64,000 bases of DNA from Halofilum ochraceum (GTDB lineage Bacteria; Pseudomonadota; Gammaproteobacteria; XJ16; Halofilaceae), in assembly GCF_001614315.2 (NCBI RefSeq), contig NZ_LVEG02000004.1, positions 372,001 to 436,000 on the forward strand, given 5' to 3'. The number at the start of each line of letters is the position of its first letter. Position 1 is the first letter of the stretch. The notes below the pieces were generated by a model, which worked only from the letters and a program-made list of their open reading frames with translations, had not been told where the DNA came from and ran no database searches. Below are positions 21,593 to 59,668 of the stretch, piece by piece. The position numbers and the translations under genes are program-made.

Positions 21593-21670
21593 ACTCGATT
21601 AGCGATATTCCGATTGTGTGCCAACGCCTGGCACCACGCCGCGAAAGAAACCAATCCGGGGGATAACAAA

Positions 21671-23812: not shown

Positions 23813-23907
23813 GCGTGCCCACCGGGGGGCCGGGTAGCGCATCCGGTTTCCCCCGCCGCCCCGGTTTCGGCGACAATCGTGGCCAGTACCAGTCGGAGTG
23901 CATCGGC

Positions 23908-24699
23908 ATGCAGAGCGGCGTTGATGAAGGAGGTTTCGCGGTCACGGGGGTGGGTTTCCGGGTGCCGGAGCGGGAACTGCTCGCGGGCATTGATCTGACG
24001 CTGCGCCCGGGCCGTCTGTACGGCCTGATCGGCCATAATGGCTCCGGCAAGACCACGCTGTTGAAACTGCTGGCCCGCCAGCAGACACCCACCACCGGGT
24101 GGATCACTTTCGACGGTACGCCGCTGCAGCAGTGGTCCCAGCGGGAACTGGCGTGCCGGATCGGCTACATGGCGCAGCAGCCGCCAGAGGCGACCGGGCT
24201 GACCGTCCGCGAGTTGACCGCGCTGGGGCGCTATCCGTGGCACGGCGCCATTGGCCGCTTCACGGCGGACGATCGGGCGCACGTCGATGAGGCGTTGCGG
24301 CTGACCGAAGTGGAGGATCTTTCGGGGCGTCTGGTCGATACGCTGTCCGGCGGCGAGCGCCAGCGGGCATGGCTGGCGATGCTGGTCGCGCAGGACAGCC
24401 GCTGTATGCTTCTGGATGAGCCCATATCGGCGCTCGACGTAGCCCACCAGATGGACGTGATGGAGCGGATCCGGCACCTGTGTCTCGAACGCGGGCTCAC
24501 GGTCGTCGCCGTCCTCCATGACGTGAACATCGCCGCCCGTTTCTGCGATGAGCTCGTAGCCCTGCACGGCGGCCAGCGCGTGGTTACCGGCACACCGGCG
24601 GAGGTCGTTCAGCCGGAAACACTCGAGCGTATCTACGGCGTGCCGATGGGTGTCATGCACACGCCCGAGCACGCGCTGCCGATCAGCTACGTCGCCTAA
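23908..24699 (+). CDS. fhuC: Ferric siderophore ABC transporter ATPase, FhuC type
   Basis: 263 residues from ATG 23908, the usual FhuC length. GTG starts at 23806 and 23815 are open but would add unmatched residues. Walker A is GHNGSGKTT, the ABC signature LSGGERQRAW and Walker B CMLLDEP. The segments TVRELTALGRYPWHGAIGRF and TLERIYGVPMGVM are nearly the same as those in E. coli FhuC. It supplies ATP hydrolysis for import of ferric hydroxamate siderophores through FhuB. It follows the receptor and is followed by fhuF. Confidence 0.88.
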   Translation: MQSGVDEGGFAVTGVGFRVPERELLAGIDLTLRPGRLYGLIGHNGSGKTTLLKLLARQQTPTTGWITFDGTPLQQWSQRELACRIGYMAQQPPEATGLTVRELTALGRYPWHGAIGRFTADDRAHVDEALRLTEVEDLSGRLVDTLSGGERQRAWLAMLVAQDSRCMLLDEPISALDVAHQMDVMERIRHLCLERGLTVVAVLHDVNIAARFCDELVALHGGQRVVTGTPAEVVQPETLERIYGVPMGVMHTPEHALPISYVA

Positions 24700-24703
24700 A
24701 GCG

Positions 24704-25477
24704 ATGCGCACGCCCGCCGAAGGGGAGCGCGTCGGCAATGGTTCGCCGGAGATGCCGCTGCCCGACGCCTTGCACGCGCTGCTCCGGGAGCGCTGGCCTT
24801 TCTGCTGTGATCGGATTCTCCTTCACCCCTCCGTTGGCGATGCGGTTCCCCTGACCGGATCCGATGCCGATCGTGCGCTGTGCGACTGTTTCGAGCGCTG
24901 GTGCGGGGGAATGCAGGGCGAGGACCGGCGCGGCCTGGGGTCGCTCTGGACGCAGTGGTATGCCGTGACCGTCTGGCCGCCGCTCGTCGCGGGGATTCTC
25001 TTGCTGGGACGGGCGCCGCGGTTCGAATGCCGCGAGACGCGGCTGCTGGTGGATGAAGACGGCTGTCCGAGCGGTCTCGGCATCGCGCCCGAAGTGCAGA
25101 GTGGCGATCCGGCAACGCTGCTCGACGCGCTGACCGCTGCGCACGCGACTCCATTGATCAACGCGGTGGCCGAGGCCACTGCAACGGCGCCGCGCGTGCC
25201 GTGGAGCAACGTGGCCAACGTGCTCGGATGGATGCTGGCGGAACTCGGAACCGTCGCCGACGAGGCTACGCTGGCACCCGGTTATGAACTGTTGACCCGA
25301 CGCCACCAGCCCGACGGACGCCCCAATCCGCTGTATCTGGGCGCCAGGCGCGTGGCTGTGCCCGGACGTCCGGCCCGACGAGTGTGCTGTCTGCGTTACC
25401 GCCTGAGCGGGTTCGACTACTGTGGCGACTGTCCGATCACCTGCTCTTGTGGAACCTCTGATGATCGGGGGGCCTGA
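24704..25477 (+). CDS. fhuF: Siderophore-iron reductase FhuF
   Basis: 257 residues from ATG 24704, five bases after the fhuC stop. The C-terminus holds the unusual 2Fe-2S motif of FhuF: Cys-Cys, ten residues, Cys, two residues, Cys (VCCLRYRLSGFDYCGDCPI). FhuF reduces iron(III) bound to hydroxamate siderophores in the cytoplasm, releasing iron(II). This fits the FhuBCD-type importer around it. Two further Cys (CSC) near the end lie outside the motif. Confidence 0.88.
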   Translation: MRTPAEGERVGNGSPEMPLPDALHALLRERWPFCCDRILLHPSVGDAVPLTGSDADRALCDCFERWCGGMQGEDRRGLGSLWTQWYAVTVWPPLVAGILLLGRAPRFECRETRLLVDEDGCPSGLGIAPEVQSGDPATLLDALTAAHATPLINAVAEATATAPRVPWSNVANVLGWMLAELGTVADEATLAPGYELLTRRHQPDGRPNPLYLGARRVAVPGRPARRVCCLRYRLSGFDYCGDCPITCSCGTSDDRGA

Positions 25478-25593
25478 CCGTCGGGGTTTTGGTGATGCAC
25501 GGGTGCGCCACGCAAAGTCCGATCTGTATCGTTCCTCAACGCGATGGCTGGATTACTCCAGTGTTCCCGTCGTCGTCATTGGCAGGGATGACC

Positions 25594-25714
25594 GTAAGCC
25601 GGCTTGAGACCGAAGGGAGCCAGCCGGCGGGACAGCACCAGCCGTTGTCGGGAGGTCCCGCTGCTGACGCCGGCTGTTGCCTGCGGCAAAAGCCGGCTCA
25701 CGGCGAGCCTTCGG
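25594..25714. repeat. Foldback element, copy 1, between convergent fhuF and fhuB
   Basis: The left arm begins GTAAGCCGGCTTGAGACCGA and ends GGGAGCCAGCCGGC. The right arm reads GCCGGCTGTTGCC then GGCAAAAGCCGGCTCAC. Both arms have close matches in the element at 29522-29618, but in opposite order and strand. It fills most of the 265-base gap 25478-25743, which holds no gene. Confidence 0.75.
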
Positions 25715-25743
25715 TCACCTGCCGTTGTGAGTCCGTCCGTGGT

Positions 25744-27723
25744 TCATGAACGCCGCAGCAGCCACATAAAGTAGAGCCCGCCGATGAAGGCGGCTGCCAG
25801 CCCCGCGGGCCATTCATGCGGTACCAGAAGGGTACGTCCGGCCCAGTCGGCGGCCACCATGACGAGCACGCCGATAGCGGCCGCGCCGATGATCTGCGTG
25901 CGCACCCGGCGCAGCCCCAGCATGCGGGCCATGTGCGGCGCCATCAGACCGACGAAACTGAGCGGGCCGACCAGCAGTGTGGCGACCGCCGTTGCCAGCG
26001 CCGCGAGCGTCAGCAGGACAAGATGCGCCATGTTCACCCGTACGCCGCGCGCACCGGCCGCTTCCGCGCCCAGCCCGAGCAGTTCGAGCCAGCGGTGCAG
26101 CGCCAGCACCGTCGGCGCGAGCAGCATCACGGCCATCCCGGCGCCGATCACCAGCGGCCAGTCCACGCCATACGTCGAGCCCGAGACCCAGCTCAGCAGG
26201 CGCAGCCAGAGTGGGCTGCCACTCGCCGCGACAAGCCCGATCAACCCGTCATAGATCGCCTTGATCGCGATGCCGGCGAGCAGGATCCGCTCGGGCGCGG
26301 CACCGCCGTGGCGGGCGAACCAGAGCAGGCCGCCCGTGGTCACGACCGCGCCCGCGGTGCCCGCGGCGACCAGAGCCGGTTCGCCGGCCCCCGGTTGTGC
26401 CATCACGAGCAGGGTCACGCCGGCGAGCGCGCCCCCGCTGATGCCGAGCACTTCTGGACTCGCCATGGGGTTGCGCAGCAGGCGTTGCAGGATCGTGCCG
26501 GCCAGCGCCAGCAGCAGGCCCGCGCAGGCGGCCGCGACCACCCGCGGGGCACGCCAGGGACTCGCGTCGAGCACGGTTGCGATATCGCGCAGATGCCAGC
26601 CACTCGCGTCGCGTCCGAGCAGCAGCGCGATCACGGCGACCGCGAGGGCCACCAGCCAGAGCGCGGTGACTCGCCCGGTTGCATGCGTGCCCGGGTGGGG
26701 GACGGTGGCGGTCTGCATCGGAGCCGCGCGCGGGCGGACCTGGCGCAGCAGCCACAGCAGCAACGGTGCGCCGAGGAGCGCGGTAACGGCCCCGGTGGGC
26801 AGTAGGCCCGAGGTATACACGTCGAGCTGCTGCACGCACTGGTCGGTCACGAACAGCAGCAGCGCACCGATCGCCGGCGCGGCGAACAGGCGCTGGCCGA
26901 TCGTGCGGGCGCCGAGCTGCCGTGCCAGCGCCGGAGCGGCGAGACCGACGAACGCGATGATGCCGACGGCACTCACGATCGCCGCCGCCAGGTAGACCGC
27001 GGCCGCCAGTGCAAGCAGACGCGCACGCTGCAGGGAAAGTCCCAGCCCGCGGGCGCTGTGGTCATCCAGCGTCAGGATCGCGAGGGGCCGCGCGAGCAGC
27101 GCGAGCAGGCCCAGCACGACCAGCACGCGCGGGGCGAGGAACGTGACGCCGCTCCAGTCATGCTGGGTGAGCGCGCCGCCACCCCAGATCAGCAGCGCCT
27201 TGAGGTCGAACTCGAAAAACAGCAGCAGGCCGGCGTTGACGGCGCCGAAGTACAGGCTGACCACCAGTCCGGCCAGCACGACACTGACCGGTTCGAGTCC
27301 GCGCCGCCATGTCAGGGCCAGCACGATCCCCAGTGCGAGTGCGCCGCCGGCCACCGCGACGGCCTCCCCGAATGGCGCGAGCAGGGCGGGCGCGGTCAGC
27401 GTCAGGACGGACAGTCCGAGCTGGGACCCGGCCGCCACGCCCAGGGTCAGCGGCGATGCGATGGGATTGCGCAGCACCTGCTGCATGACCGTGCCCGCCA
27501 GCGCGAGACCGGCACCCGCGAGCAGGGACATGACCAGGCGCGGCAGCCACGCATGCAGGACCTGCACCGCGCCGATCGGCGCTGACGCCGGCGCGCGCCA
27601 GGCTTCGACGAGGGCGCCCGGGTCGCCGATACCCACGAGGTTGAAGCCGGCGAGGACGAGGGCACCGGCCAGCAGCGCAATGCCACCGGCGGGCAGGGCG
27701 CGCGGGCGTATGGCCTCAGTCAT
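25744..27723 (-). CDS. fhuB: Ferric siderophore ABC transporter permease, double-length FhuB type
   Basis: 659 residues from ATG 27723, which overlaps the fhuD stop (ATGACTGA); ATG 27729 is an alternative. It contains two fused FecCD permease halves, each with RNP[IM]ASP (VLRNPIASPLTLG and LLRNPMASPEVLG) and FVGLxAPxxAR (IAFVGLAAPALARQLG and SFVGLMAPHMARMLG). About 18-20 membrane segments are present. The double-length form is diagnostic for FhuB, which passes ferric hydroxamates through the inner membrane with FhuD and FhuC. Confidence 0.92.
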   Translation of the reverse strand: MTEAIRPRALPAGGIALLAGALVLAGFNLVGIGDPGALVEAWRAPASAPIGAVQVLHAWLPRLVMSLLAGAGLALAGTVMQQVLRNPIASPLTLGVAAGSQLGLSVLTLTAPALLAPFGEAVAVAGGALALGIVLALTWRRGLEPVSVVLAGLVVSLYFGAVNAGLLLFFEFDLKALLIWGGGALTQHDWSGVTFLAPRVLVVLGLLALLARPLAILTLDDHSARGLGLSLQRARLLALAAAVYLAAAIVSAVGIIAFVGLAAPALARQLGARTIGQRLFAAPAIGALLLFVTDQCVQQLDVYTSGLLPTGAVTALLGAPLLLWLLRQVRPRAAPMQTATVPHPGTHATGRVTALWLVALAVAVIALLLGRDASGWHLRDIATVLDASPWRAPRVVAAACAGLLLALAGTILQRLLRNPMASPEVLGISGGALAGVTLLVMAQPGAGEPALVAAGTAGAVVTTGGLLWFARHGGAAPERILLAGIAIKAIYDGLIGLVAASGSPLWLRLLSWVSGSTYGVDWPLVIGAGMAVMLLAPTVLALHRWLELLGLGAEAAGARGVRVNMAHLVLLTLAALATAVATLLVGPLSFVGLMAPHMARMLGLRRVRTQIIGAAAIGVLVMVAADWAGRTLLVPHEWPAGLAAAFIGGLYFMWLLRRS

Positions 27724-28585
27724 CGCCATCGATCGCCGCGCCGAGGTGCTCGGCGAACTGGATCGCGGCCGGCACGCCACCGTAACTCCAGATCGGCTCG
27801 AGCCGGTGGACGTTGCCTTCGCGCACCGCCGGCAGGGCCTGCCAGATGGGACTGCTCGCCATCATCCGTTGCGCCTTCTGCGGGACCGGCTCGATCACCA
27901 CGATGTGATCAGCGGCCCGGTCGAGGCGCTCGATCGGGACCAGCGAGAATCCCCAGTAACTGGCGCCGCCCTGCCAGGCGTTGTTCAATCCGGCGCGTCG
28001 CAGGACCGCGTCGAAGAGCCCGGGCGCACCAACGACCCGTACGTGGTGGGCGTCCTCGAAACCGATGACGTATACGGATTCCCCGGCATCGGTACGTTCT
28101 TTAAGGTCCGCGATCGCGCGGTCCAGATCCGCGCGCAGGCGCGGCATTGCCTGGACGCGACCCAGTCTGTCCGCGAGCCGTCCGGCGATGCGGAGACTGC
28201 TCTCGAGTGCGTTCACTTCATTGTCCGGTGCATAGATGCGCAGGGTTTCGGTAGGCGCGATCGTCGCGAGGCGTTCGCGGGCCCGGTTGTAGTACCCGGA
28301 CATGAGGATCAGGTCCGGGTCGGTGCCTGCCAGTACGTCGAGGTTCGGTTCAATGCGCCGCCCCACATCGACCGTGCGATCGGGCAGCGACGGGCGGCCA
28401 ACCCATTTGCGGTACCCGTGCATATCGGCGATGGCGACCGGCTCGACATCGAGCGCGAGCAGGGTCTGCGCGAGACCCCAGTTGAGCACGGCGATGCGTT
28501 CCGGGCGCTGCTCTGGCGAGGCGGATAGCGGGCCGGTGATCAGCAGACACACCGTCAGTGCGATCGCGGTTGTGCGCAACGCCAT
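27716..28585 (-). CDS. fhuD: Ferric siderophore periplasmic binding protein, FhuD type
   Basis: 289 residues with a signal peptide (ALRTTAIALTVCLLITGPLSA). It has the class III binding-protein layout: ERIAVLNWGLAQTLLALDVEP, then DPDLILMSGYYNRARERLA, and the C-terminal AAIQFAEHLGAAI. It carries ferric siderophore from the outer-membrane receptor to FhuB. It is transcribed away from zrgA. A Fur-like box (28683-28697) lies about 100 bases upstream. Confidence 0.88.
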   Translation of the reverse strand: MALRTTAIALTVCLLITGPLSASPEQRPERIAVLNWGLAQTLLALDVEPVAIADMHGYRKWVGRPSLPDRTVDVGRRIEPNLDVLAGTDPDLILMSGYYNRARERLATIAPTETLRIYAPDNEVNALESSLRIAGRLADRLGRVQAMPRLRADLDRAIADLKERTDAGESVYVIGFEDAHHVRVVGAPGLFDAVLRRAGLNNAWQGGASYWGFSLVPIERLDRAADHIVVIEPVPQKAQRMMASSPIWQALPAVREGNVHRLEPIWSYGGVPAAIQFAEHLGAAIDGDD

Positions 28586-33418: not shown

Positions 33419-33837
33419 TCGTGCCGCTGCCGCGCAGCAGCCGGACGTCCGAGGACAACGTCCTGCCGCTCATCAATATCGTCTTTCTGCTGTTGATCTT
33501 CTTCATGATCGCCGGGGCGCTATCCACCCGACCGCCGTTCGAACTGCAGCCGCCGCGGGCAGATGCGGCTCCATCGACCTCAGCACCGGCAACTGCCGGA
33601 ATCGCGATTGCAGCCGATGGTCGTATCGCGTTCCGGGGCGAGGAGATCGCCCTCGGGGCACTGTCCGACCGTGCCCGCGACTGGGCGGGGAGCAACGATA
33701 ACGACCGGCCACTCACGCTGCGGGTAGACGGCGGGGCCGACAGCGAGCGTCTCCTGGCGGTGATGGCGGCCCTCAAGGAAGCCGGGATTGAGCGTATCCG
33801 CATGCTGGCGGTTGGCGGCCAAGACGGGGCGGGCTGA
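33415..33837 (+). CDS. exbD: ExbD-family protein, copy 2
   Basis: 140 residues, ATGA overlap with copy 1. The membrane segment [20 protein letters not shown] has Asn at the position where canonical ExbD has the proton-conducting Asp (LIN against LID in copy 1). That difference suggests a structural or regulatory role and possibly an ExbD1-ExbD2 heterodimer. The periplasmic domain is normal. Confidence 0.88.
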
Positions 33838-34721
33838 TGCGTGGTATCCGCTGGCTGCTCGTCGGCTCGCTCGCGCTCGCGCTCCACATCGCCGTGTTCG
33901 TCGGCCTCTCCCGGGCCATGAATGACACCGGTACGCAGGCCAGGGGACGTGACGGGTTGCTGGTCGCGCTCGCGCCCGCCGGCACTGCCGCAGGCAATGC
34001 CAGGGAAACACGCCGCACCGATGCGCGGACACCACATCCGGACAGGCAGGCGGAGACGCGACAGGAAGCGGAACCCGAGCCGGAACCCAAGCCCGAACCC
34101 GAGCCGGAACCCGAGCCGGAACCCGAGCCGGAACCCGAGCCGGAACCCGAGCCGGAACCCGAGCCGGAACCCGAGCCGGAACCCGAGCCGGAACCCGAGC
34201 CGGAACCCGAGCCGGAACCCGAGCCGGAACCCGAGCCGGAACCCGAACCCGAACCCGAACCGGAACCGGAACCGGAACCGGAATCGGAATCAACGACTGC
34301 AACCGCGTCCACCAAAAAGCCGGCGGAGGATCCGGACAAGCGCGAGACCACGGCGGGCGACGCCGGATCGGGCGGGGCAGACGGTGACACCGGGTCCACT
34401 TCGGAGGGAGGTGCCGGGGGTGGGGATCCCGGCGCGCGCGCCGACTATCTCGACCGGCTGCGGGCGCATCTCGGTCGCCACAAGGAATACCCGCGCCGGG
34501 CCCGGGCGCGGCGGATCGAGGGCACGGTGACCGTGGGCTTCACCATTCATCCGGACGGGCGGATCACGGATACGCGGATCGACGAGAGTTCCGGTCAGCG
34601 GATTCTCGATCAGGCGGCCGAGCGCATGCTTGAGCGGGCGTCGCCGGCGCCGTCGTTCAACGATGACATGGATTCGTCGCCCATCACGCTGAGCGTCCCG
34701 GTCAGCTACGGGCTCCGGTAA
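33837..34721 (+). CDS. tonB: TonB energy transducer with long Pro-Glu linker
   Basis: 294 residues; the start shares one base with the exbD2 stop (TGATG). The N-terminal membrane anchor is at residues 6-26 ([20 protein letters not shown]). The periplasmic linker (about residues 78-150) is almost pure Pro-Glu repeats from a 12-base tandem repeat. The C-terminal TonB domain contains [20 protein letters not shown] and the [14 protein letters not shown] helix. TonB couples the proton motive force to the siderophore receptor. The rigid acidic linker spans the periplasm; canonical TonB linkers alternate Pro-Glu and Pro-Lys, here nearly all acidic. Confidence 0.92.
34105..34236 (+). repeat. 12-bp tandem repeat in tonB, eleven perfect copies
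   Basis: CGGAACCCGAGC is repeated eleven times exactly, each copy encoding four residues of the Pro-Glu run, with diverged copies on both sides (34081-34104 and 34237-34280). Copy number should vary between strains. Confidence 0.95.
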
Positions 34722-43881: not shown

Positions 43882-45083
43882 AGACAACCACGGCTGATCC
43901 CGTCCCGGTGATGCCACAGCCAGCCACTGTAAGCGGCGAACGCTGGATCGTATTTTTCGGCGAGGACTGGGCCGGTCACCACAGTACGGGAAAGTACCTG
44001 GCGTCGGGTCTGTCCGAGCGCCATCAGGTGATCTGGGTTGACTCGTTGGGTTTACGGGCGCCCGGATTGCAGATCAGGGATCTGCGGCGTATCGGCAGAA
44101 AACTCTGGTTGTTTCTCCGCTCTCTTGGGAAGAAATCGAAGACCGATGCAGCGCATGAGCGTCGACCGATAGTCGTAAGCCCGCTCGCGATTCCCTGGCT
44201 GAAGTATGCATGGGTCCGATCGCTTAACCGCTGGTTCGTGGGAGGTTACCTGCGCCGGGTGGCACGCCGGAATGGTGTCGTTCGCCCCTTGGTGATAACC
44301 GCATGTCCTGCCACGGTCGATGTGGTGGATGTTCTGAATCCAACACACGTAATCTATTACTGTGCGGATGAGCACTCGGCGTTGCCGGGCATGGATGCGC
44401 CGTTGGTCCGGCGCCTGGAGATGGAATTGCTTGAGCGGGTTGATGCGGTTTTTGCCGTATCCCGTGAGCTTGTTTCGGCGAAAGAGAGACTGCATTCGAC
44501 TGTCCATTACTTCCCGCATGGTGTCGCATGGGCGTCATTCAGGCCGGCAGCGGTCGAGAAGTTGTGTCTGCCGGAAGAGTTTGCGGATGTTCCGGAACCC
44601 CGTGTGGGCTATATCGGTCTTGTCGGTGAGCATCTGGACTTCGACCTGATGTATCAACTGATGTTCTCGATGCCAGAGGTATCGTTTGTAGTAATCGGGC
44701 CCGTTGAGGATGGGGTAACGCCGCCGGATTTGCCGAACGTTCATTACATCGGCGCACGGCCTTTTGGAATGCTGGCGACATATCTGGCCCATATCGATAT
44801 TGGCCTGTTGCCATGGAAGAGGAATGAGCGGAACCGTTTCGCGAACCCCACGAAGGTTCGCGAATATCTCGCCGCCGGGTGCCCGGTTGTTTCCACACCC
44901 CATCCGGAGTTGCCTGAGCGGTCGCCGTTCGTGGCAAGTGCAGATACGGCGCTTGAGTTCGCGGTGGCGATACGGCACACGTTGTCCAATCGCCCTGACC
45001 GCGACGCCGTGTCGCAGTCCGTCTCGGGGGAGGACTGGTCTGTTCGGGTCCGCGAACTCGAGACCCTGGTAGCCCAGGTATGA
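43878..45083 (+). CDS. Glycosyltransferase, GT4-like
   Basis: 401 residues from ATG 43878 (ATGA overlap). GT-B fold: N-terminal WIVFFGEDWAGHHSTGKYLASG and C-terminal donor-binding part with IDIGLLPWKRNERNRFANPTK and VREYLAAGCPVVSTPHPEL. The segment VIYYCADEHSALPG is seen in sugar transferases of exosortase-type and teichuronic clusters. It adds a sugar to the lipid-linked repeat unit at the cytoplasmic face. Donor and acceptor cannot be named. GC is somewhat lower than average. Confidence 0.8.
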   Translation: MKTTTADPVPVMPQPATVSGERWIVFFGEDWAGHHSTGKYLASGLSERHQVIWVDSLGLRAPGLQIRDLRRIGRKLWLFLRSLGKKSKTDAAHERRPIVVSPLAIPWLKYAWVRSLNRWFVGGYLRRVARRNGVVRPLVITACPATVDVVDVLNPTHVIYYCADEHSALPGMDAPLVRRLEMELLERVDAVFAVSRELVSAKERLHSTVHYFPHGVAWASFRPAAVEKLCLPEEFADVPEPRVGYIGLVGEHLDFDLMYQLMFSMPEVSFVVIGPVEDGVTPPDLPNVHYIGARPFGMLATYLAHIDIGLLPWKRNERNRFANPTKVREYLAAGCPVVSTPHPELPERSPFVASADTALEFAVAIRHTLSNRPDRDAVSQSVSGEDWSVRVRELETLVAQV

Positions 45084-46594
45084 CTGCGCGCACCACGGCC
45101 GCCCCTGAGCCCGATGCAGGATCTCCCCCGCCGGTCGGGCTCACCGGAATGATCGGACATTCGGCCGTCTACTGGGGCGGCGTGATGGTGTCAAAACTGA
45201 TCGGTTTCCTGTTGATTCCGATCTATACGCACCATCTGACACCCGCGGATTATGGAACTCTGGAACTGGTCGCCCTGACCACGGATGTCATGGCGTTGAT
45301 CATCGGTGGACGGCTCGTGGCGGCGATGTTCCGCTTTTATCATGCCGCAGCGGATGCCGCGGAACGCCGTCAGGTCCTGGCGACCTCGTTGACGGCGATG
45401 CTTATCGTCGGGCTGTTATTCTTCATCGTTGCGTCTTTTTTTACCGGTGATATTGCCCGGTTGCTGTTTGGCTCCTCGGAACACGCAACGCTATTGCAGA
45501 TCGTTTTCTTCACGACTGCGCTGGAACTGGTTCAGCAGATCGCGATGAGTGAACTCAGAATCCACGAGCGCAGTCGCCTGTTTGTCGCGATTACGTGGAT
45601 CCATCTGCTATTGATGCTGGTTGGAAGCATCCTTTTCCTCGTCGTTTTTGACTGGGGCGTGTTCGGTGTCCTGTTGGCGGCCGCGATCGCGACGGGGGTC
45701 GTCGGGCCAATCGTGATTGTCTCGGTTGCACGCCGAACCGGACTGGGGCTGCACCCGGTCCTGCTGCAGCGGATGGTCGTTTACAGTCTACCGTTGATAC
45801 CGGCAGCTCTGTTTCTGTTCGTACTGCACTTTGCCGATCGCTACATCCTGAATATGTTCGTTTCACTGGAGGCGGTTGGACTCTATGCCCTTGCCTACAA
45901 ATTCGGGTTCCTGATCAGCGCGGTGATCGCCCATCCGTTCTCGCTCATATGGGGAAATCGGATGCATGTGCTGTATCGGGAGACCGGCCGCGACCGGATG
46001 TATAACCAGGTCCTGTCGGCATATGGGATTGTGCTGGTCGGTGCCGGTGTGGGCCTGTCACTGTTCATCGACGAGGTGCTGGCGTTGATTTCGCCGCCCG
46101 TCTACCACGCGGCCGCATCGCTGGTACCGATCATCGCCGCTGGGTATGTGCTTGCCGCCATGAACCAGCTCTCGATGGGGCCGCTCTATGCCGAAAGCCG
46201 GACCGGCTGGGTCGCGCTCGCCACCGCCGCTGGCGCCGGCGTCAACGTGGTCGTCAACTTCCTGCTTGTACCGTTTTACGGCGCGACCGGCGCGGCGGTG
46301 GCGACGCTTATCGCTTTCACGGCAATGGCTGGGGTGACGCAATATCTGGCGGCACGGGCGTCGACATTACGCTGGGATTATCACCGCGCGTTCGCGCCGT
46401 TGGCGGTGGGTGTAGTGATTGTCGTGATCGGACGAAGCAGCGATCATGGCAGTATCGTTATGGCGATCGGCTTCAAACTCTTGCTGCTGCTGGTGGTGTA
46501 TCCGCTGGCGTTGCTCCTCGTGCGTGCCGTTCCGGTGGCCGATCTTGCGGAGTTCTGGCGGTGGCTTCGGCGCTCGGCGGTGTCCGCGACATGA
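45080..46594 (+). CDS. wzx: Wzx-type polysaccharide flippase
   Basis: 504 residues with about 12-14 membrane segments, ATGA overlap at both ends. The N-terminal SAVYWGGVMVSKLIGFLLIP and THHLTPADYGTLELV are the standard opening of the polysaccharide transporter (MOP) family. It flips the lipid-linked repeat unit across the inner membrane before polymerisation by the Wzy-like protein two genes downstream. Confidence 0.88.
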   Translation: MTARTTAAPEPDAGSPPPVGLTGMIGHSAVYWGGVMVSKLIGFLLIPIYTHHLTPADYGTLELVALTTDVMALIIGGRLVAAMFRFYHAAADAAERRQVLATSLTAMLIVGLLFFIVASFFTGDIARLLFGSSEHATLLQIVFFTTALELVQQIAMSELRIHERSRLFVAITWIHLLLMLVGSILFLVVFDWGVFGVLLAAAIATGVVGPIVIVSVARRTGLGLHPVLLQRMVVYSLPLIPAALFLFVLHFADRYILNMFVSLEAVGLYALAYKFGFLISAVIAHPFSLIWGNRMHVLYRETGRDRMYNQVLSAYGIVLVGAGVGLSLFIDEVLALISPPVYHAAASLVPIIAAGYVLAAMNQLSMGPLYAESRTGWVALATAAGAGVNVVVNFLLVPFYGATGAAVATLIAFTAMAGVTQYLAARASTLRWDYHRAFAPLAVGVVIVVIGRSSDHGSIVMAIGFKLLLLLVVYPLALLLVRAVPVADLAEFWRWLRRSAVSAT

Positions 46595-52504: not shown

Positions 52505-54442
52505 TCAGGTCGCACTCGCCAAAGGGATCGCCGTCGTATCAGTCGCCATGGGCATCGCTTCCAGGCCCCGGAGGCTGCCGTCCAACATCAACAGCGCCCA
52601 TAACAGGGTCGAGTGATCGGCCTCCCTGGCCATATGGGCGCGCACGAGCTCGGCAACGCCCTCTGCCTGGATCAGCCCCGATCCGAGCAGGACTTCGCTC
52701 TCCGCCAGCGCCTCCGCGCGCGTGCGCAGAGCGCCGCGGAACCAGTCGGCCAACGGGATCGATAACCCCATCTTGCGCCGGTAGAGGATTTCCTTCGGCA
52801 GGCGCCGCTCAGCCGCCTTTTTGAGCACGTACTTGCCCTCGCCGCGGTGCAGCTTGAGTGATGCGGGCAGGGTGGCGGCCCACTCCAGCAGCTTGTGGTC
52901 CAGCAATGGAACCCGCACTTCCAGCGAGTTGGCCATGCTCGCGCGGTCGACCTTGGTCAGGATGTCACCCGGCAGGTACAGCTGGAAGTCGATGAATTGC
53001 GCCAGTGCCAGCGGATCGTCCGTGTCCGCGCGCCGGGCGTGGTCGGCGACCACGGTATCGGCCCGATAGCCGGCCAATTCACGTTTCAGTGCAGGCGAAA
53101 ACAGGGTGTCGCGCTGGCGCGCCGTCGTGATCATCGTACTTGCCGCGTAACCGGCGTGACCGCCGTCCGCGATCCGTTGCCACCCCCGCGCCCAGCTTGC
53201 GCGCCGGCCCGACCCATCGGCGTCGCCGATGGCGTTCGCGATGGCACCGAACACGGGCCCGCGCAGCGGCGCGGGCAGCCACCGGCGTACCCGTTCACGG
53301 GCGGCATGGCCCGCATACCAGCCGTAACCGGCGAAGGCCTCATCACCGCCGTCGCCGGAAAGCGCCACGGTCACCGAGCGGCGCGCAATCTCGCACAGTC
53401 GTGTCGTCGGCAGCGCCGAGGAGTCGGCGAAAGGTTCATCATATAGGCTGGGCAGACGATCGATCCGGTCGAGATCGTCGATGTCCACGGATTCGACCCG
53501 GTGTTCGGCGCCGATGAGATCCGCGACCTGTTGCGCGTGCGCCGATTCGTCGAATGCCGGGTCACCGAAACGGATCGAGCAGGTATGCACCGGTTGCTCG
53601 CTGTGCCGGGCCATCGCCGCCACGACGCTTGACGAGTCGACTCCGCCGGACAGAAAGGCCCCCAGGGGCACGTCCGCAATCATGTGCGCGCCCACGCTTG
53701 CGTCGAGCCGTTCCTGGAGCATGTTGACGGCCGTGGTCTCGGCACTCGGCCCATTGTCGCTGAAATGCAGATCCCAGTAGCGTCGCGGTTCCCCGCGACC
53801 GTCCGGTCCAAGCAACAGGGTATGGCCCGGGGGCAGCTTGCGCGCATCGCGCAACAGTGTGCGCGGGTCCGGAATGAACCCGAAAGCGAGATAGTCTTCG
53901 AAAGCGCGCGGATCAAGATCGCGCGTCATCTCGGGATGCGCGAGCAGCGCCTTGAGCTCGGAGCCGAACACCATTCGGCCCGAGGGCAATCGGGCGTAAT
54001 GCAGGGGTTTGATACCGACCCGGTCACGGGCGAGAAAGAGTACCTGTTGTCGGCGGTCCCACAGGGCGAAGGCGAACATCCCCTGCAATCGCTGCACGCA
54101 CGCCGGACCCCATTCTTCCCACCCGTGCACCAGTACCTCGGTGTCGCTGTCAGTGGCGAACACATGGCCGCGCGCGGTCAACTCGCGTGTGAGTTCACGG
54201 TAGTTGTAGATCTCACCGTTGAACACGACGACGACCGAACCGTCCTCATTGAATAACGGCTGATGCCCCCGGTCGACATCAATGATCGCCAGACGCCGAT
54301 GACCCAGACCGATCCCCGAATCGAGGAACAGGCCCTCGCCGTCTGGCCCGCGATGCACGAGTGCATCGTTCATGCGTTGCAAATCCATCCGTGCCGGTCT
54401 CGCGCCGGTTACCGGGTCCAGAATACCGACGATGCCGCACAT
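52505..54442 (-). CDS. Asparagine synthase-like amidotransferase of the XrtA cluster
   Basis: 645 residues. The N-terminal class II glutaminase domain has the nucleophile Cys2 (MCGIVGILDP). The C-terminal synthetase domain has FLSGGVDSSSVVAAMA (pyrophosphate loop), DGGDEAFAGYG and KVDRASMANSLEVRVPLLD. It resembles amidotransferase 1 of exosortase-associated clusters, which may amidate uronic acids or the polymer. It is transcribed against the polysaccharide operon and convergent with the acetyltransferase gene; the gap between them is 22 bases. Confidence 0.86.
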   Translation of the reverse strand: MCGIVGILDPVTGARPARMDLQRMNDALVHRGPDGEGLFLDSGIGLGHRRLAIIDVDRGHQPLFNEDGSVVVVFNGEIYNYRELTRELTARGHVFATDSDTEVLVHGWEEWGPACVQRLQGMFAFALWDRRQQVLFLARDRVGIKPLHYARLPSGRMVFGSELKALLAHPEMTRDLDPRAFEDYLAFGFIPDPRTLLRDARKLPPGHTLLLGPDGRGEPRRYWDLHFSDNGPSAETTAVNMLQERLDASVGAHMIADVPLGAFLSGGVDSSSVVAAMARHSEQPVHTCSIRFGDPAFDESAHAQQVADLIGAEHRVESVDIDDLDRIDRLPSLYDEPFADSSALPTTRLCEIARRSVTVALSGDGGDEAFAGYGWYAGHAARERVRRWLPAPLRGPVFGAIANAIGDADGSGRRASWARGWQRIADGGHAGYAASTMITTARQRDTLFSPALKRELAGYRADTVVADHARRADTDDPLALAQFIDFQLYLPGDILTKVDRASMANSLEVRVPLLDHKLLEWAATLPASLKLHRGEGKYVLKKAAERRLPKEILYRRKMGLSIPLADWFRGALRTRAEALAESEVLLGSGLIQAEGVAELVRAHMAREADHSTLLWALLMLDGSLRGLEAMPMATDTTAIPLASAT

Positions 54443-54781: not shown

Positions 54782-55786
54782 ATGGAATACCGGAGTATTG
54801 CCGAACTCAACGATCGAGTCGTGGACTGGATCGGTGTATTACCGCGGGATCTTGATCTGATCGTAGGGATCCCGCGCAGTGGCATGCTGCCGGCGAACCT
54901 GCTCGCGCTGCATCTCCATTTGCCGTTCACCGATGTGGAGGGCTTGTGTTCCGGGCGGATCATGGCCTCCGGCCAGCGCGGCGTACCGTACCCGGATCCA
55001 GAACGGCCACTCAATGTGCTGGTCGTGGATGACAGTGTCTGTTCCGGCATATCCATGGACCGCGTGCGTGCTACGGTGACCAACGCCGGCTTACCGCACC
55101 GGATTCGTTACGGCGCCGTGTTCGTGACCCCGGAGGCGGTCCGTGAGGGCAAGGTCGAACTGTTCGCCGAGGCGGTACCGATGCCACGGGCGTTCGAGTG
55201 GAATATCCTTCATACACGGCAACTGGACCGGTTCTGTATCGATTTCGACACGGTGATCCTTGGAGGTCCGGCGGATACCGGAGCAGATTCCACTGTCGGC
55301 GACAACGCCTTCCGGGCGTACGTCGAACCCTGGTTTCTGCCACGGCACCGGGTCGGCTGGCTTGTGACCCGCCAACCCGATACAAGGCGTGAGGAAGCCT
55401 TGGCCTGGCTTGCACGGCAGGGCGTCGAGTGCGAGGAATTGATCATGCCGATGGGGCCGAGGGACCTCCGGTCCCCAGTGGCTTTCAAGGCGCGCATCTA
55501 CCGTGAGACCGGCGCAGAGCTGTTCATTGAGGGTGATCCGGATCATGCTTCGGCGATCGCCGAGCAGACCGGTAAGCCGGTGTTCTGTTTCGCGACCCGC
55601 GCGATGATCTATCCGGGTGACTTCCCGAGGTACCGGCATATTCCGGTGCGCGCGCCACACCGTATCGAACTGGCGTTCAAATGGCTTGTCAGGCTGCCGC
55701 TGCGGGTCGTTAATCGGCTCTACCGTCGGTTCGCAAGAGAGCCTGATTGTGCCACGACCGTTGATCCGAAAAGACCGGCGAACTGA
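54782..55786 (+). CDS. Phosphoribosyltransferase fused to a HAD-like phosphatase domain
   Basis: 334 residues. Residues 1-140 form a type I PRTase fold: IVGIPRSGMLPANLLA and the PRPP loop VLVVDDSVCSGISM at residues 79-92. Residues 150-290 look like a HAD hydrolase: FCIDFD (D154, D156 as motif I), VGWLVTRQ (T196, motif II), K236 in VAFKARIY (motif III) and FIEGDPD (E250, D252, motif IV). Residues 295-320 are basic and amphipathic. Known work on ribofuranose in bacterial polysaccharides describes transfer of phosphoribose from PRPP followed by dephosphorylation; this fused pair in a polysaccharide locus fits that route, but the link is inference. Confidence 0.75.
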   Translation: MEYRSIAELNDRVVDWIGVLPRDLDLIVGIPRSGMLPANLLALHLHLPFTDVEGLCSGRIMASGQRGVPYPDPERPLNVLVVDDSVCSGISMDRVRATVTNAGLPHRIRYGAVFVTPEAVREGKVELFAEAVPMPRAFEWNILHTRQLDRFCIDFDTVILGGPADTGADSTVGDNAFRAYVEPWFLPRHRVGWLVTRQPDTRREEALAWLARQGVECEELIMPMGPRDLRSPVAFKARIYRETGAELFIEGDPDHASAIAEQTGKPVFCFATRAMIYPGDFPRYRHIPVRAPHRIELAFKWLVRLPLRVVNRLYRRFAREPDCATTVDPKRPAN

Positions 55787-56064: not shown

Positions 56065-57084
56065 TCATGCCTGCAACTCGTCCTCATGTTGCAGCTGCCT
56101 GCGGAGTCGATCGAAACGCCGGTACCAGTCGGCTCGCAGGTTCTCTGCAGTGCCGCTGACCTTGCCTTTCAACTCCTCGCGCCGCTCCAGCACCTCGTTG
56201 ACGCCCTTGCGAATACTCGCCGCATTTGGAGCGACGTACACCATCGTTTTGCCAAAGTAAGACCGCAATGCATGGGTATCGGAAAGAATCAGTGGCTTAC
56301 CGAGCGAGAGAGCTTCGTAGGCGCCGCAGGTAAGGACGTTTTCCCCTGTGGTCAGCACCATGACGGCGTCGACATTGTCCATAAGGTCGACGTAGTCCTG
56401 TTCGTTGATAAAACCGGTTAGCACGATACCCTGCGAGCCCAGCTCTTCGACCCGGTAGGCCCATGGCGTGCCTCGATAGTCACCCGTGAAGTAGGCCGTG
56501 ACATCAGTCGAGATGGCGAACGCCTCCACCAATTCCTCGATGGGTTCATCGTCCGCGTAGCTGGTGATGCACATTATGGTGCGCCCGCGCGGCTCACCGA
56601 GGCAGTCTGGGCGGCGCCGCGGCCGCGACGGTTGCAGTTGCGGAATCCGGTCCTGCAGGACGTATGCATGCCCGCCCCAATCGTGAACGACTTCCGCGAG
56701 GCCTTTGTTGGTCACGATCGTCAGATCGGCGTTGCGAACCGTCCAGCGACTGAGGGCATGGTACAGCCGCCACCTGATAGCAGGGGACGATAGTGTCTCG
56801 AGCATGAAGTTGGAATGCCGGTCGACGACCAGCGTGTAGCCCATCACCTTGCGCAGCATGCACAGAAGGCCAGTCAGTGCGATCGACGGGTTCTGACAGA
56901 AAACAAGGCGACTGCGTCTGCGCAGAATAAAAACCGCCGTGCGGGCGCTGAGCAACAGGTACCGCACCAGCGTCGGTGCTTCTCTTTCGAAACATGCATA
57001 CTCCGCATCGAAGGCATCCGCGAGTTCGCGGGATCGACGATGATTCTCCCAGGTGATCCAGTGAGCGTTCGCATTGTTGGACAT
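56065..57084 (-). CDS. Glycosyltransferase, GT-B fold
   Basis: 339 residues from ATG 57084; a longer frame to 57234 overlaps manC. The N-terminal part (WITWENHRRSRELADAFDAE, LVFCQNPSIALTGLLCMLRK, TLVVDRHSNFML) and C-terminal part (VLTGFINEQDYVDLMDNVDAVMVLTTGENVLTCGAYEALSLGKPLILSD) give the GT-B outline with the Glu-containing donor site. It is 49 bases downstream of the point where manC ends on the same strand, overlapping none of it in this start choice. Cytoplasmic sugar transfer; GDP-mannose from ManC is a plausible donor. Confidence 0.75.
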   Translation of the reverse strand: MSNNANAHWITWENHRRSRELADAFDAEYACFEREAPTLVRYLLLSARTAVFILRRRSRLVFCQNPSIALTGLLCMLRKVMGYTLVVDRHSNFMLETLSSPAIRWRLYHALSRWTVRNADLTIVTNKGLAEVVHDWGGHAYVLQDRIPQLQPSRPRRRPDCLGEPRGRTIMCITSYADDEPIEELVEAFAISTDVTAYFTGDYRGTPWAYRVEELGSQGIVLTGFINEQDYVDLMDNVDAVMVLTTGENVLTCGAYEALSLGKPLILSDTHALRSYFGKTMVYVAPNAASIRKGVNEVLERREELKGKVSGTAENLRADWYRRFDRLRRQLQHEDELQA

Positions 57085-57133
57085 TGTTGATATTCCCTGT
57101 CTGCATTCTGGCATTGGCCCGCACGATGTAGCG

Positions 57134-58594
57134 TCAGTCGCGTTCCACGCCCGCCGTCTCCTCGGAAATCGAGGCTGTCTCCATGGATGCGACCCGTCCA
57201 TACCAGTCATTAAACCGTACGATATCGTCCTCACCGAGATAGGATCCGGATTGGACTTCGATCAATTCCAGCGGTATATGACCCGGATTCTCCAGCGCGT
57301 GGATTTGCCCCAGAGGAATGAATGTCGATTGGTTTTCGGACACTAGGCAGACATCGTCACCGCTCGTCACACGAGCGGTGCCCCGTACGACCACCCAGTG
57401 TTCGGCACGGTGGTGGTGCATCTGCAGTGATAATCGCGCACCCGGGCGCACGATTATGCGCTTCACCTGGAAGCGATCGCCGCGGTCGACGCAGTCGTAA
57501 CTGCCCCAGGGTCTGATAACCTGGCGATGGTCCACGTGCTCCGTGCGGCCATCGGCTTGAAGCCGGTCAACGATCTTGCGGATGTCCTGGGCTCGTTCTT
57601 TGTGGGCTATCAGCACGGCGTCGCAGGTCTCGATGACCACCAAATCCTCGACACCGAGCGTCGCCACGAGCCGATGATCCGAGTGGATGAGCGAATCACG
57701 GGTATCAAGCGCAATTACGTCGCCATTGCACACGTTGCCCGCCGCATCTCGCTCTGATACCCCCGCGAGTGCTGACCATGAACCGATGTCACTCCAGCCG
57801 GCATCCAGCGGCACCATCGCTGCTCGTCCGGTTTTCTCCATGACCGCGTGATCGATCGAGATCGCACGACAACGCGTGAACGGTTCACGTGCCACGCGCA
57901 GGAAATCCAGGTCCCGTGCCCCCGATGCTAGCGCCTCGCGGCACAGTGACAGGATCGTCGGCTCACTCGCGCCCAGCTCATCGATATAGGACGAGGCGCG
58001 GAAAAGGAACATTCCACTGTTCCAGTAATGCACGCCGCTACCAAGGTAACGCTCGGCGGCTTCCCGCTGCGGCTTTTCGATAAACTGCTTGATGATGTAA
58101 CCGGCGTCGCCTACCGGCACGCCACGCTCGATATAGCCGTAGCCGGTTTCCGGTTCGGTGGGTGACACGCCGAACGTGACCAGATAGCCCGCCTCCGCGA
58201 GGGCTCGCGCTGCGGCCACCTGGGCATGAAACGTCGATGTGTCCTGGATGACGTGATCGGCGGATAGCACCAGCAGCAGAGGATCCTCACCATTTGCAGT
58301 CGCATGCAACGCAGCCAGGGCAATCGCGGGTGCGGTATTTCGTGCCAGTGGCTCGAGCAGGATTGCAGCCGCGGTGGCATCGATCTCACGCAGTTGTTCC
58401 GCGATCATGAAGCGATGCTGCTCGTTGCAGAGCACGATCGGCGGCCTGCTGGTCAGGCCTTCGAGTCGCGTGAGCGTTGCCTGAAGCATCGTTTCTTTGC
58501 CGACGAGCGGCAGAAACTGCTTGGGCTTGAGCTGGCGCGAAAGAGGCCAGAGCCGAGCGCCGTTTCCGCCAGCGAGAATAACTGGAAGTACCAT
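57134..58594 (-). CDS. manC: Mannose-1-phosphate guanylyltransferase / mannose-6-phosphate isomerase
   Basis: 486 residues from ATG 58594 (GGGAG upstream); a frame to 58657 adds unrelated residues. Nucleotidyltransferase motif VILAGGNGARLWPLSRQLKPKQF and the FIEKP active-site segment are clear. The C-terminal cupin isomerase domain has RPWGSYDCVDRGDRFQVKRI and HHHRAEHWVVVRGTARV. The enzyme makes GDP-mannose for mannose-containing exopolysaccharide. It precedes the GT gene on the minus strand. Confidence 0.92.
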   Translation of the reverse strand: MVLPVILAGGNGARLWPLSRQLKPKQFLPLVGKETMLQATLTRLEGLTSRPPIVLCNEQHRFMIAEQLREIDATAAAILLEPLARNTAPAIALAALHATANGEDPLLLVLSADHVIQDTSTFHAQVAAARALAEAGYLVTFGVSPTEPETGYGYIERGVPVGDAGYIIKQFIEKPQREAAERYLGSGVHYWNSGMFLFRASSYIDELGASEPTILSLCREALASGARDLDFLRVAREPFTRCRAISIDHAVMEKTGRAAMVPLDAGWSDIGSWSALAGVSERDAAGNVCNGDVIALDTRDSLIHSDHRLVATLGVEDLVVIETCDAVLIAHKERAQDIRKIVDRLQADGRTEHVDHRQVIRPWGSYDCVDRGDRFQVKRIIVRPGARLSLQMHHHRAEHWVVVRGTARVTSGDDVCLVSENQSTFIPLGQIHALENPGHIPLELIEVQSGSYLGEDDIVRFNDWYGRVASMETASISEETAGVERD

Positions 58595-59668
58595 CAGAGC
58601 ACTCTCCCTTTTTCCGGCACCCTGCCGCGGTCGGTGCCACGCGCATGCGGGGCGCATGCCGCTGGACGGTGGGCCCGGAACGGGGGTGATGAACGTGTCG
58701 CCTGGAGTCGATATGGCGCGGTGTTCGGGCGAAACGGTGGATTATTGTGTCGCGGTGAGCATGTACCGCGAGTGATGGACCTGAAGAAATGACAGGAGGT
58801 CGTTCCGGAACGGGTAAAAGCCGAGTCCCGCTCCACTAGAGCTCCTGGTTCGAAGTCGGCAGCCGGGCGCTTGAGGCCCCGGCATCGAAACTCTCCCATC
58901 CCGCACGCTCCCTCTCGTGACATCCCCATCAGTACGGGGGCACTCAACAGGGGCGTTGCCGCGAGCCTGCCCGCGGGTCGGCGGCCCCTCAATGGAGCGT
59001 AGTTTCATTTCAGCGCGTGGGTGCAACTTTTTGCGCGCAATTCCAAAAGAATTCGAATCCACGCGCTTACTGGGTGAAGGGTTATTCCATGCGGCCGGTT
59101 TCCTGTCCGCCGCGATCGTCACGCAGCGTGGGCCGCCGGGTCCCCGGGCGTACCCGCGGACAAGCCATAACAGGCGAGGAAGCGGGCGGTGGTGACGGGA
59201 AGTCGGAGGCACCCAGGGTAATGAAGAGCCCCGCAACGCGGGTCGAGCGAAAGCGTGCCGGCCGGAGATATCGCGCGGGGGCGACACGGCCCTGCATAGA
59301 GAGTAGTGATGTCCGTGACCACGAGCGGCAACGGAGAACACGAACTTCGGTCTGACCGGCGGCAAGGAACCGGCTTACTCCCCGAGTCGAATGGCACTTG
59401 CGATGAAGTAAGTGCTATTCAAGGTACACCCCTGATCTCTCTAGAATCGACTTTGTCCAATGTTCCGTGGGCTCCGACCATCGGCGGCGTTCGATGCCGC
59501 GGGCAAGATGGCTACGCTTGAACGAGTGTTCAATTCGCAATATCTTGCGATCATCGGGCAGTACTTGCCGCAGGGCGCAACGTGAGAGGCGCGCTGCGGG
59601 ATTGCCGCAGCGATCGGCCGTTCCTCGCACGCAACCGAGGCTACCCGGGCAAGAGAGCGAAGACTCCG
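58595..59668. other. About 1 kb without a credible gene, possible structured RNA or intron relic
   Basis: Short ORFs exist in every frame but none has family features or a good ribosome binding site. From about 59070 to 59420 the sequence is rich in small GC hairpins and GNRA-like turns: CCCGC-AAC-GCGGG at 59230-59242, GC-GAAA-GC at 59247-59254, and GCACTT-N10-AAGTGC at 59394-59415. The style resembles 5' domains of group II introns, but I cannot identify a domain V or reverse transcriptase. See findings. Confidence 0.35.

Follow-up and report, generated by a model that had tools for sequence, protein, structure and literature searches.

To our knowledge, it was an open question before 2022 which donors and transferases bring ribofuranose into polysaccharides. 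The closest described systems join a phosphoribosyltransferase (PRTase) to a phosphatase of the HAD type. In PMC11127046, gPRT-PRP (Kelly et al. 2022, Nat Chem Biol) is described as a dual-domain ribofuranosyltransferase that uses PRPP. CriT-CrpP of Hib Bcs3 is another PRPP-using PRTase-HAD ribofuranosyltransferase (PMC10299916), and Cj1432 of C. jejuni has been predicted to be similar to enzymes of this kind (PMC11800397).

Here we study a fused gene in a stretch of 64,000 nucleotides from Halofilum ochraceum; "the window" is this whole stretch. The gene (54782..55786, + strand) codes for a type I PRTase joined to a HAD domain, 334 aa in total, as judged from the open reading frame, the conservation in its family and an AlphaFold2 model. 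The reading frame starts with ATG, and the same M-x-Y-R-S start is found in family members. In our reading of the sequences, the gene probably belongs to a widespread family of cytoplasmic two-domain ribofuranosyltransferases, in a scheme of transfer, dephosphorylation and riburonic acid steps. The type I PRTase at the N-terminus, which would derive from an XGPRT-like enzyme, would bind PRPP and hand on its 5-phosphoribose; the acceptor would be not a purine but a hydroxyl on a glycan that is still growing and probably linked to a lipid. The C-terminal HAD phosphatase would then strip the 5-phosphate, leaving a terminal ribofuranose. Oxidation of the ribofuranose to riburonic acid would follow in Mesorhizobium and its relatives, through a linked GMC oxidoreductase and its small subunit, a step suggested by co-inheritance and by the published polymer.

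When searched alone, the window protein matches only PF00156 in Pfam, with 21.4 bits and thus under the cut-off of 26.3, and Pfam and NCBIfam together give nothing beyond this sub-threshold PRTase match. The HAD half has no Pfam match at all, and phmmer finds no firm match for the protein in the PDB. Because these single-sequence searches gave little, family profiles were needed. The AlphaFold2 model has a mean pLDDT of 84.9, and about 97 across most of the PRTase; the loop at residues 160-180 is poorly modelled, and the C-terminus forms basic helices.

The PRTase domain (residues 1-141; 54782..55204, +) has an XGPRT/HGXPRT-like fold according to both Foldseek and the family profile. It shows the core fold, the pyrophosphate loop and the DD...G 5-phosphate loop of type I PRTases. 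In HMMER alignments the family profile matches the purine PRTases 4trb, 4z1o, 7kl6 and 1vdm, and PF00156 is matched by all 57 of the 57 aligned family members. The pyrophosphate loop is GIPRSG (residues 29-34; 54866..54883, +), with R32, S33 and G34 present in 91-92 of 93 members. The PRPP loop, VLVVDDSVCSGISM (residues 79-92; 55016..55057, +), is located by alignments to purine PRTases and lies where an earlier note on this DNA had placed it. Among the 93 family ORFs D83 is found in 99%, D84 in 100% and G89 in 97%. The PRSG of the pyrophosphate loop, the vicinal DD and the glycine of the 5-phosphate loop are nearly invariant. The window copy keeps 33 of the 34 conserved PRTase columns (1/34 changed).

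While the PRPP side is kept, the purine side is replaced. In XGPRT the purine is contacted by a general-base Asp, a Lys and a stacking Trp. The first of these, in the DDxxDTG loop, is an Asp in only 3 of the 93 members and another residue in 90; in the window protein it is C87. In the YxKP strand, the Lys has given way to other residues and is not one of the seven most frequent at that column. In place of the stacking Trp the family has P135 (93/93) and R136 (87/93, 94%), followed by the invariant W140 and N141. The set of purine-contact Asp, Lys and Trp that marks a purine PRTase of the XGPRT/HGXPRT kind is thus not kept across the family. Since the elements for PRPP are kept and the purine contacts are lost, the simplest reading is that the family would be a PRPP enzyme with a non-purine acceptor. 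The window copy itself is likely to carry out PRPP-dependent transfer.

It is quite improbable that the protein is instead a salvage PRTase for purines or another nucleobase, carrying a nucleotidase domain and present in a polysaccharide cluster by chance. The replacement of the positions for the purine base, the Lys and the stacking Trp is family-wide, the genes lie among glycan genes in many phyla, and inside the exo cluster of Mesorhizobium the gene is gained and lost jointly with a GMC oxidase, even though XGPRT and HGXPRT are the best structural matches and HAD nucleotidases are common. The earlier note had held that fold matches confined to salvage enzymes with a base-binding hood would speak against a role in ribofuranose transfer. 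On this point the outcome is divided: in a Foldseek search of the window model against the PDB, 5bqo is best (E 2.6e-8) and purine PRTases fill the first 43 ranks, but the residues that contact the purine are gone.

The HAD-like domain (residues 146-272; 55217..55597, +) carries the four motifs of the HAD superfamily (DxD, T/S, K, acidic). Motif I is CIDFDTV with D154 and D156 (55235..55255, +; 97% and 99% of the 93 family ORFs), motif II is T196 (55367..55369, +; 98%), motif III is K236 (55487..55489, +; 100%) and motif IV is E250 (55529..55531, +; 100%). All these residues, and D252, are at the positions reported before. E250 and D252 had been proposed together as motif IV; E250 is the conserved acid, since the motif listing shows variation at position 252. 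The motifs of the window protein are not due to chance, as they are near-invariant across the 93 family ORFs.

Searched against PDB sequences, the family profile finds the Pnkp1 phosphatase (E 1.2e-4). The HAD domain of a canonical family member was modelled with a pLDDT of 93, and its best Foldseek matches are Pnkp1 (4xrp) and the T4 polynucleotide 3-phosphatase (5uj0, TM 0.56), with E-values from 3.6e-3 to 0.02 and probabilities of about 0.99-1. The canonical domain thus models as a phosphatase fold of the PNKP type; the substrate and context of the two known enzymes differ from those of the family.

In the window copy this domain retains all five catalytic residues, while conserved residues around them are eroded. 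Of 49 columns with at least 90% conservation 19 are changed, and the losses include G157, C160, N168, D170, G171, Y174, R198, E200, Y202 and S251. The substrate-side set of the family, DGVLC...ENDDG...SRLEKYR...ES, is not preserved here, while a paralog in the same genome differs at 3/49 columns. The idea that one polypeptide does both steps is supported as far as the architecture goes, a PRTase with a HAD phosphatase, but because of the erosion the second step, removal of the 5-phosphate by the window copy's own HAD domain, is uncertain. The domain may work slowly or on a different substrate, or the paralog, whose HAD domain is intact, may take over this step.

This paralog (G000:C8:11916-12881) has a decayed PRTase and an intact HAD domain. 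Its pyrophosphate loop reads AAPPGG and its PRPP loop NDSAWST. The decay of the two copies is reciprocal: 11/34 PRTase and 3/49 HAD columns are changed in the paralog, against 1/34 and 19/49 in the window copy. This pattern would fit a reading in which the window PRTase adds a 5-phosphoribose that is left phosphorylated, or in which the paralog finishes the reaction in trans; we regard this as possible, but rather unlikely. The paralog adjoins a Wzx flippase and an AsnB-like gene. In Rhodobacter sp. CZR27 one locus holds two family copies, a PRTase-decayed, HAD-intact one beside an intact one, and in two further loci (L013 and L046) one of the tandem copies is HAD-eroded. However, these eroded copies have lost the nucleophile (D154E), whereas the window protein keeps its five catalytic HAD residues, and the two paralogs sit on long branches and are not recent duplicates. 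The window copy and the paralog, or similar pairs, may cooperate.

Close kinship of the window copy and the paralog is unsupported; both are long branches, which the tree program warns against joining. Paired copies as a rule for the family were rejected as well: of the haloarchaeal genomes checked, most contain a single full copy alongside unrelated PRTases. The paralog lies in a small island on contig C8 (L103:11916-16534) that consists of the family gene, the Wzx flippase and the AsnB-like gene. The island is apart from other glycosyltransferases, and each of its genes is matched by one in the window cluster. On the CZR27 plasmid (L142:12722-20037) the two family copies flank a GT4 gene, and the locus also has Wzx and a GMC oxidoreductase with its small subunit. 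The decayed copy there has lost its PRPP-binding residues (GLPGGG, VVIGDTAPDG) and retains the HAD motifs.

How does the family compare with the known enzymes? With gPRT-PRP it has in common a PRPP-dependent phosphoribosyl transfer and a HAD phosphatase in one protein, the location in polysaccharide loci and the same predicted two-step chemistry. The gPRT domain is reportedly a new fold, unlike known PRTases, and by this description it is set apart from the PRTase of the family, which is a recognisable XGPRT-like type I domain. The window PRTase does not have a non-type-I fold of this kind; its matches are to purine PRTases of type I. The PDB sequence matches and the listed fold matches, from a PDB set that may not contain the reference entries, include no gPRT or PRP chain. 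Likewise, CriT-CrpP has a PRPP donor, inverting transfer to a hydroxyl, a HAD phosphatase (CrpP) and a PRTase-like core (CriT), but in CriT the DD motif is split between loops and there are helical bundles, whereas the family has a vicinal DD and a compact type I core without a polymerase domain. XGPRT and HGXPRT share with the family the fold, the pyrophosphate loop, the DD and the 5-phosphate loop, and differ from it in their purine-contact residues, which the family has replaced, and in the C-terminal HAD fusion. The family shares the logic of the known PRTase-HAD ribofuranosyltransferases, but not their PRTase fold as reported, and the principle is not new.

A different use of PRPP is found in Citrobacter ORF15, a polyprenyl phosphoribose synthase with a fused HAD domain, and in mycobacterial DPPRS, where PRPP is likewise the source of ribose for surface glycans (PMC11127046). 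Unlike the family, these enzymes have an integral membrane UbiA fold, an alpha-linked product and an extracytoplasmic route (PMC11127046). The Citrobacter route, in which a UbiA-type synthase carries a PRP domain (PMC11127046), is a precedent for the idea that the family makes a lipid-linked phosphoribose donor (polyprenyl-phosphate ribose) and is not a direct glycan transferase, and the basic C-terminal helices of the model could approach a membrane. We find this improbable. The Pfam matches of the window protein include no UbiA domain, its model is that of a soluble alpha/beta type I PRTase, and in our reading of the Mesorhizobium cluster we recognised neither a GT-C enzyme nor a MATE partner next to the family gene.

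The window gene lies in an XrtA-type polysaccharide cluster, as had been noted before. This assignment is based on five TIGR families and not on an exosortase gene. All five exceed their curated cut-offs near the window gene: the sugar transferase EpsB_2 (TIGR03013; 35016..36428, +), the chain length determinant (TIGR03007; 37183..38706, +), the polysaccharide deacetylase (TIGR03006; 41830..42717, +), the FemAB family XrtA-associated protein (TIGR03019; 42823..43881, +), all by NCBIfam, and the XrtA/PEP-CTERM system amidotransferase (TIGR03108, 878.5 bits; 52505..54442, -). A Wzx-type flippase (45080..46594, +) was read from the sequence alone. The window gene is divergent from the amidotransferase and convergent with two genes on the - strand (56065-58657), a glycosyltransferase-like gene assigned by eye, without NCBIfam match (56065..57234), and the GDP-mannose gene, a mannose-1-phosphate guanylyltransferase/isomerase (TIGR01479 by NCBIfam; 57134..58657). 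Since its neighbours are divergent on one side and convergent on the other, it is probably its own transcription unit. The window also contains a gene for a TonB-like protein with a long glutamate-proline repeat (33837-34721), downstream of a gene set of TonB-receptor/iron-transport type (21614-28585).

Whole-genome searches found relatives in two classes of Proteobacteria, in addition to the paralog in the window genome. In GTDB contigs, scanning with the family profile yielded 487 confirmed PRTase-HAD loci. The best 80 of these were retained, all of them with matches in the PRTase as well as the HAD half, and they cover at least 10 bacterial phyla and haloarchaea. The groups among these 80 are Bacteroidota, Pseudomonadota, Gemmatimonadota, Planctomycetota, Verrucomicrobiota, Acidobacteriota, Chloroflexota, Cyanobacteriota, Bacillota, Rhodothermota, KSB1, haloarchaea and Woesearchaeota. 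A search in phages gave no relative. With 487 loci in many phyla, the fusion is neither special to this XrtA-type cluster nor rare. The suggestion in the earlier note that it is a new arrangement therefore does not hold; PRPP-using PRTase-HAD ribofuranosyltransferases have also been published (PMC11127046, PMC10299916). The genes of this family are currently annotated just as "phosphoribosyltransferase family protein". We found no description of the family in the literature searched, a set to which most subscription journals do not belong, and it is apparently undescribed until now.

In general the family loci lie amid polysaccharide genes. Among 85 immediate neighbours in diverse loci, the family matches are Glycos_transf_2 (20), Glyco_trans_1_4 (19), Wzy_C (9), flippase (4) and pyruvyl transferase (4), counts that overlap between families; clustering of the neighbours agrees. 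Some relatives, in R. etli and R. beringeri, are found beside T6SS and caspase genes and not in a classic polysaccharide cluster. These relatives (L141:11817-28858 on an R. beringeri plasmid and L107:12815-30843 on a plasmid of R. etli CIAT 652) are C-terminally extended to about 430 aa. Next to them lies either a caspase-family gene or a peptidase gene, along with a large glycosyltransferase and genes of type VI secretion or a similar type. In a haloarchaeal locus (L023:10991-16924) a very long ORF follows directly downstream of the family gene, and a Dehalococcoidia contig (L022:5735-8893) has a 1053-aa ORF with the family unit at its N-terminus.

The link to ribose comes from Mesorhizobium. 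The exopolysaccharide of M. loti R7A is an octasaccharide, Glc5 Gal1 GlcA1 RibA1, where RibA is riburonic acid, and it is made by the exoQFYXUKTLAMONP cluster, common to R7A and MAFF303099 (PMC8227245). The family gene is found inside the exo cluster of Mesorhizobium species. In the genome G449, which we take to be M. japonicum MAFF303099, the order is exoF, exoY, an insert, exoU, exoK, UDP-glucose dehydrogenase, the large and small subunits of a GMC oxidoreductase, GT4, the family gene, Wzx, exoL, exoA, exoM, exoO, exoN and exoP, the exo names being given by order and likeness. The insert (G449:C1:4184192-4191685, L105) holds an ABC transporter, an AsnB-like gene, a PqqD-like small protein and an NTP_transf_5 gene, and resembles a lasso-peptide cassette. 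exoY, the five genes exoA, L, M, O and U, the one GT4 and the family gene add up to eight transferases for eight sugars. Following what is known of succinoglycan in S. meliloti, exoY would add Gal, exoA, L, M, O and U the five Glc and GT4 the GlcA; the family gene would add the ribose, as it is the only transferase left over once the others are assigned.

Of 146 Mesorhizobium genomes, 138 carry exoP and 124 carry GT4; a full family gene occurs in 94 and a GMC oxidase in 92. Both the family gene and the oxidase are present in 90 genomes, the family gene alone in 4, the oxidase alone in 2 and neither in 50. They thus coincide in 90 of the 96 genomes that have either, while the rest of the exo cluster stays. 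Within the GT4-positive genomes the numbers are 90 with both, 4 and 2 with one, and 28 with neither. Three genomes have remnants of the family gene, and in these the GMC oxidase is absent. GMC matches in G480 and G482 were counted as unlinked, as they are on contigs other than that of exoP. The Fisher p-values, 1e-31 overall and 3e-21 in the GT4-positive genomes, ignore phylogeny and overstate independence because the genomes are related. Two symbiosis mutants of M. loti, mlr5265 and mlr5266, were left out of the evidence because they could not be matched to individual genes. The combination of the family gene and the two GMC subunits is also present in Rhizobium sullae, S. fredii NXT3 and Rhodobacter CZR27.

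This joint loss, with the cluster staying in place, would be unexpected for a regulator. PRTase folds do serve as sensors in PyrR and PurR, and PRPP residues are lost in some copies, so one could think of a PyrR-like pseudo-PRTase, fused to a HAD domain, that senses PRPP or nucleotides and regulates polysaccharide synthesis. With both catalytic sets at 97-100% in most copies, we consider such a role very improbable.

Taken with the one characterised polymer and the counting of genes in order, the co-inheritance suggests that in Mesorhizobium the family gene adds Ribf and the GMC oxidase converts it to RibA. With this link, ribofuranose is the most likely product at the level of the family, and there the earlier proposal of a ribofuranose module is supported; it is weaker for the window copy, given the erosion of its HAD domain.

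More tentatively, the family may be an independently evolved class of glycan ribofuranosyltransferases, a fusion of an XGPRT-like domain retargeted from purines to sugar hydroxyls with a PNKP-like phosphatase, spread over at least 10 bacterial phyla and haloarchaea, in which some genomes, including this one, would have split paralog pairs with one active domain each, and which with the GMC oxidase would give the riburonic acid of Mesorhizobium. The Lotus receptor EPR3 senses full-length and truncated Mesorhizobium exopolysaccharide. The family gene and the GMC oxidase are candidates for making the riburonic acid end of this polymer, and having a candidate gene makes the role of riburonic acid in symbiosis testable in a model symbiont. 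If the reading is true, this would be a second widespread family for ribofuranose transfer, and ribose and riburonic acid would become predictable from the genomes of many phyla, archaea included.
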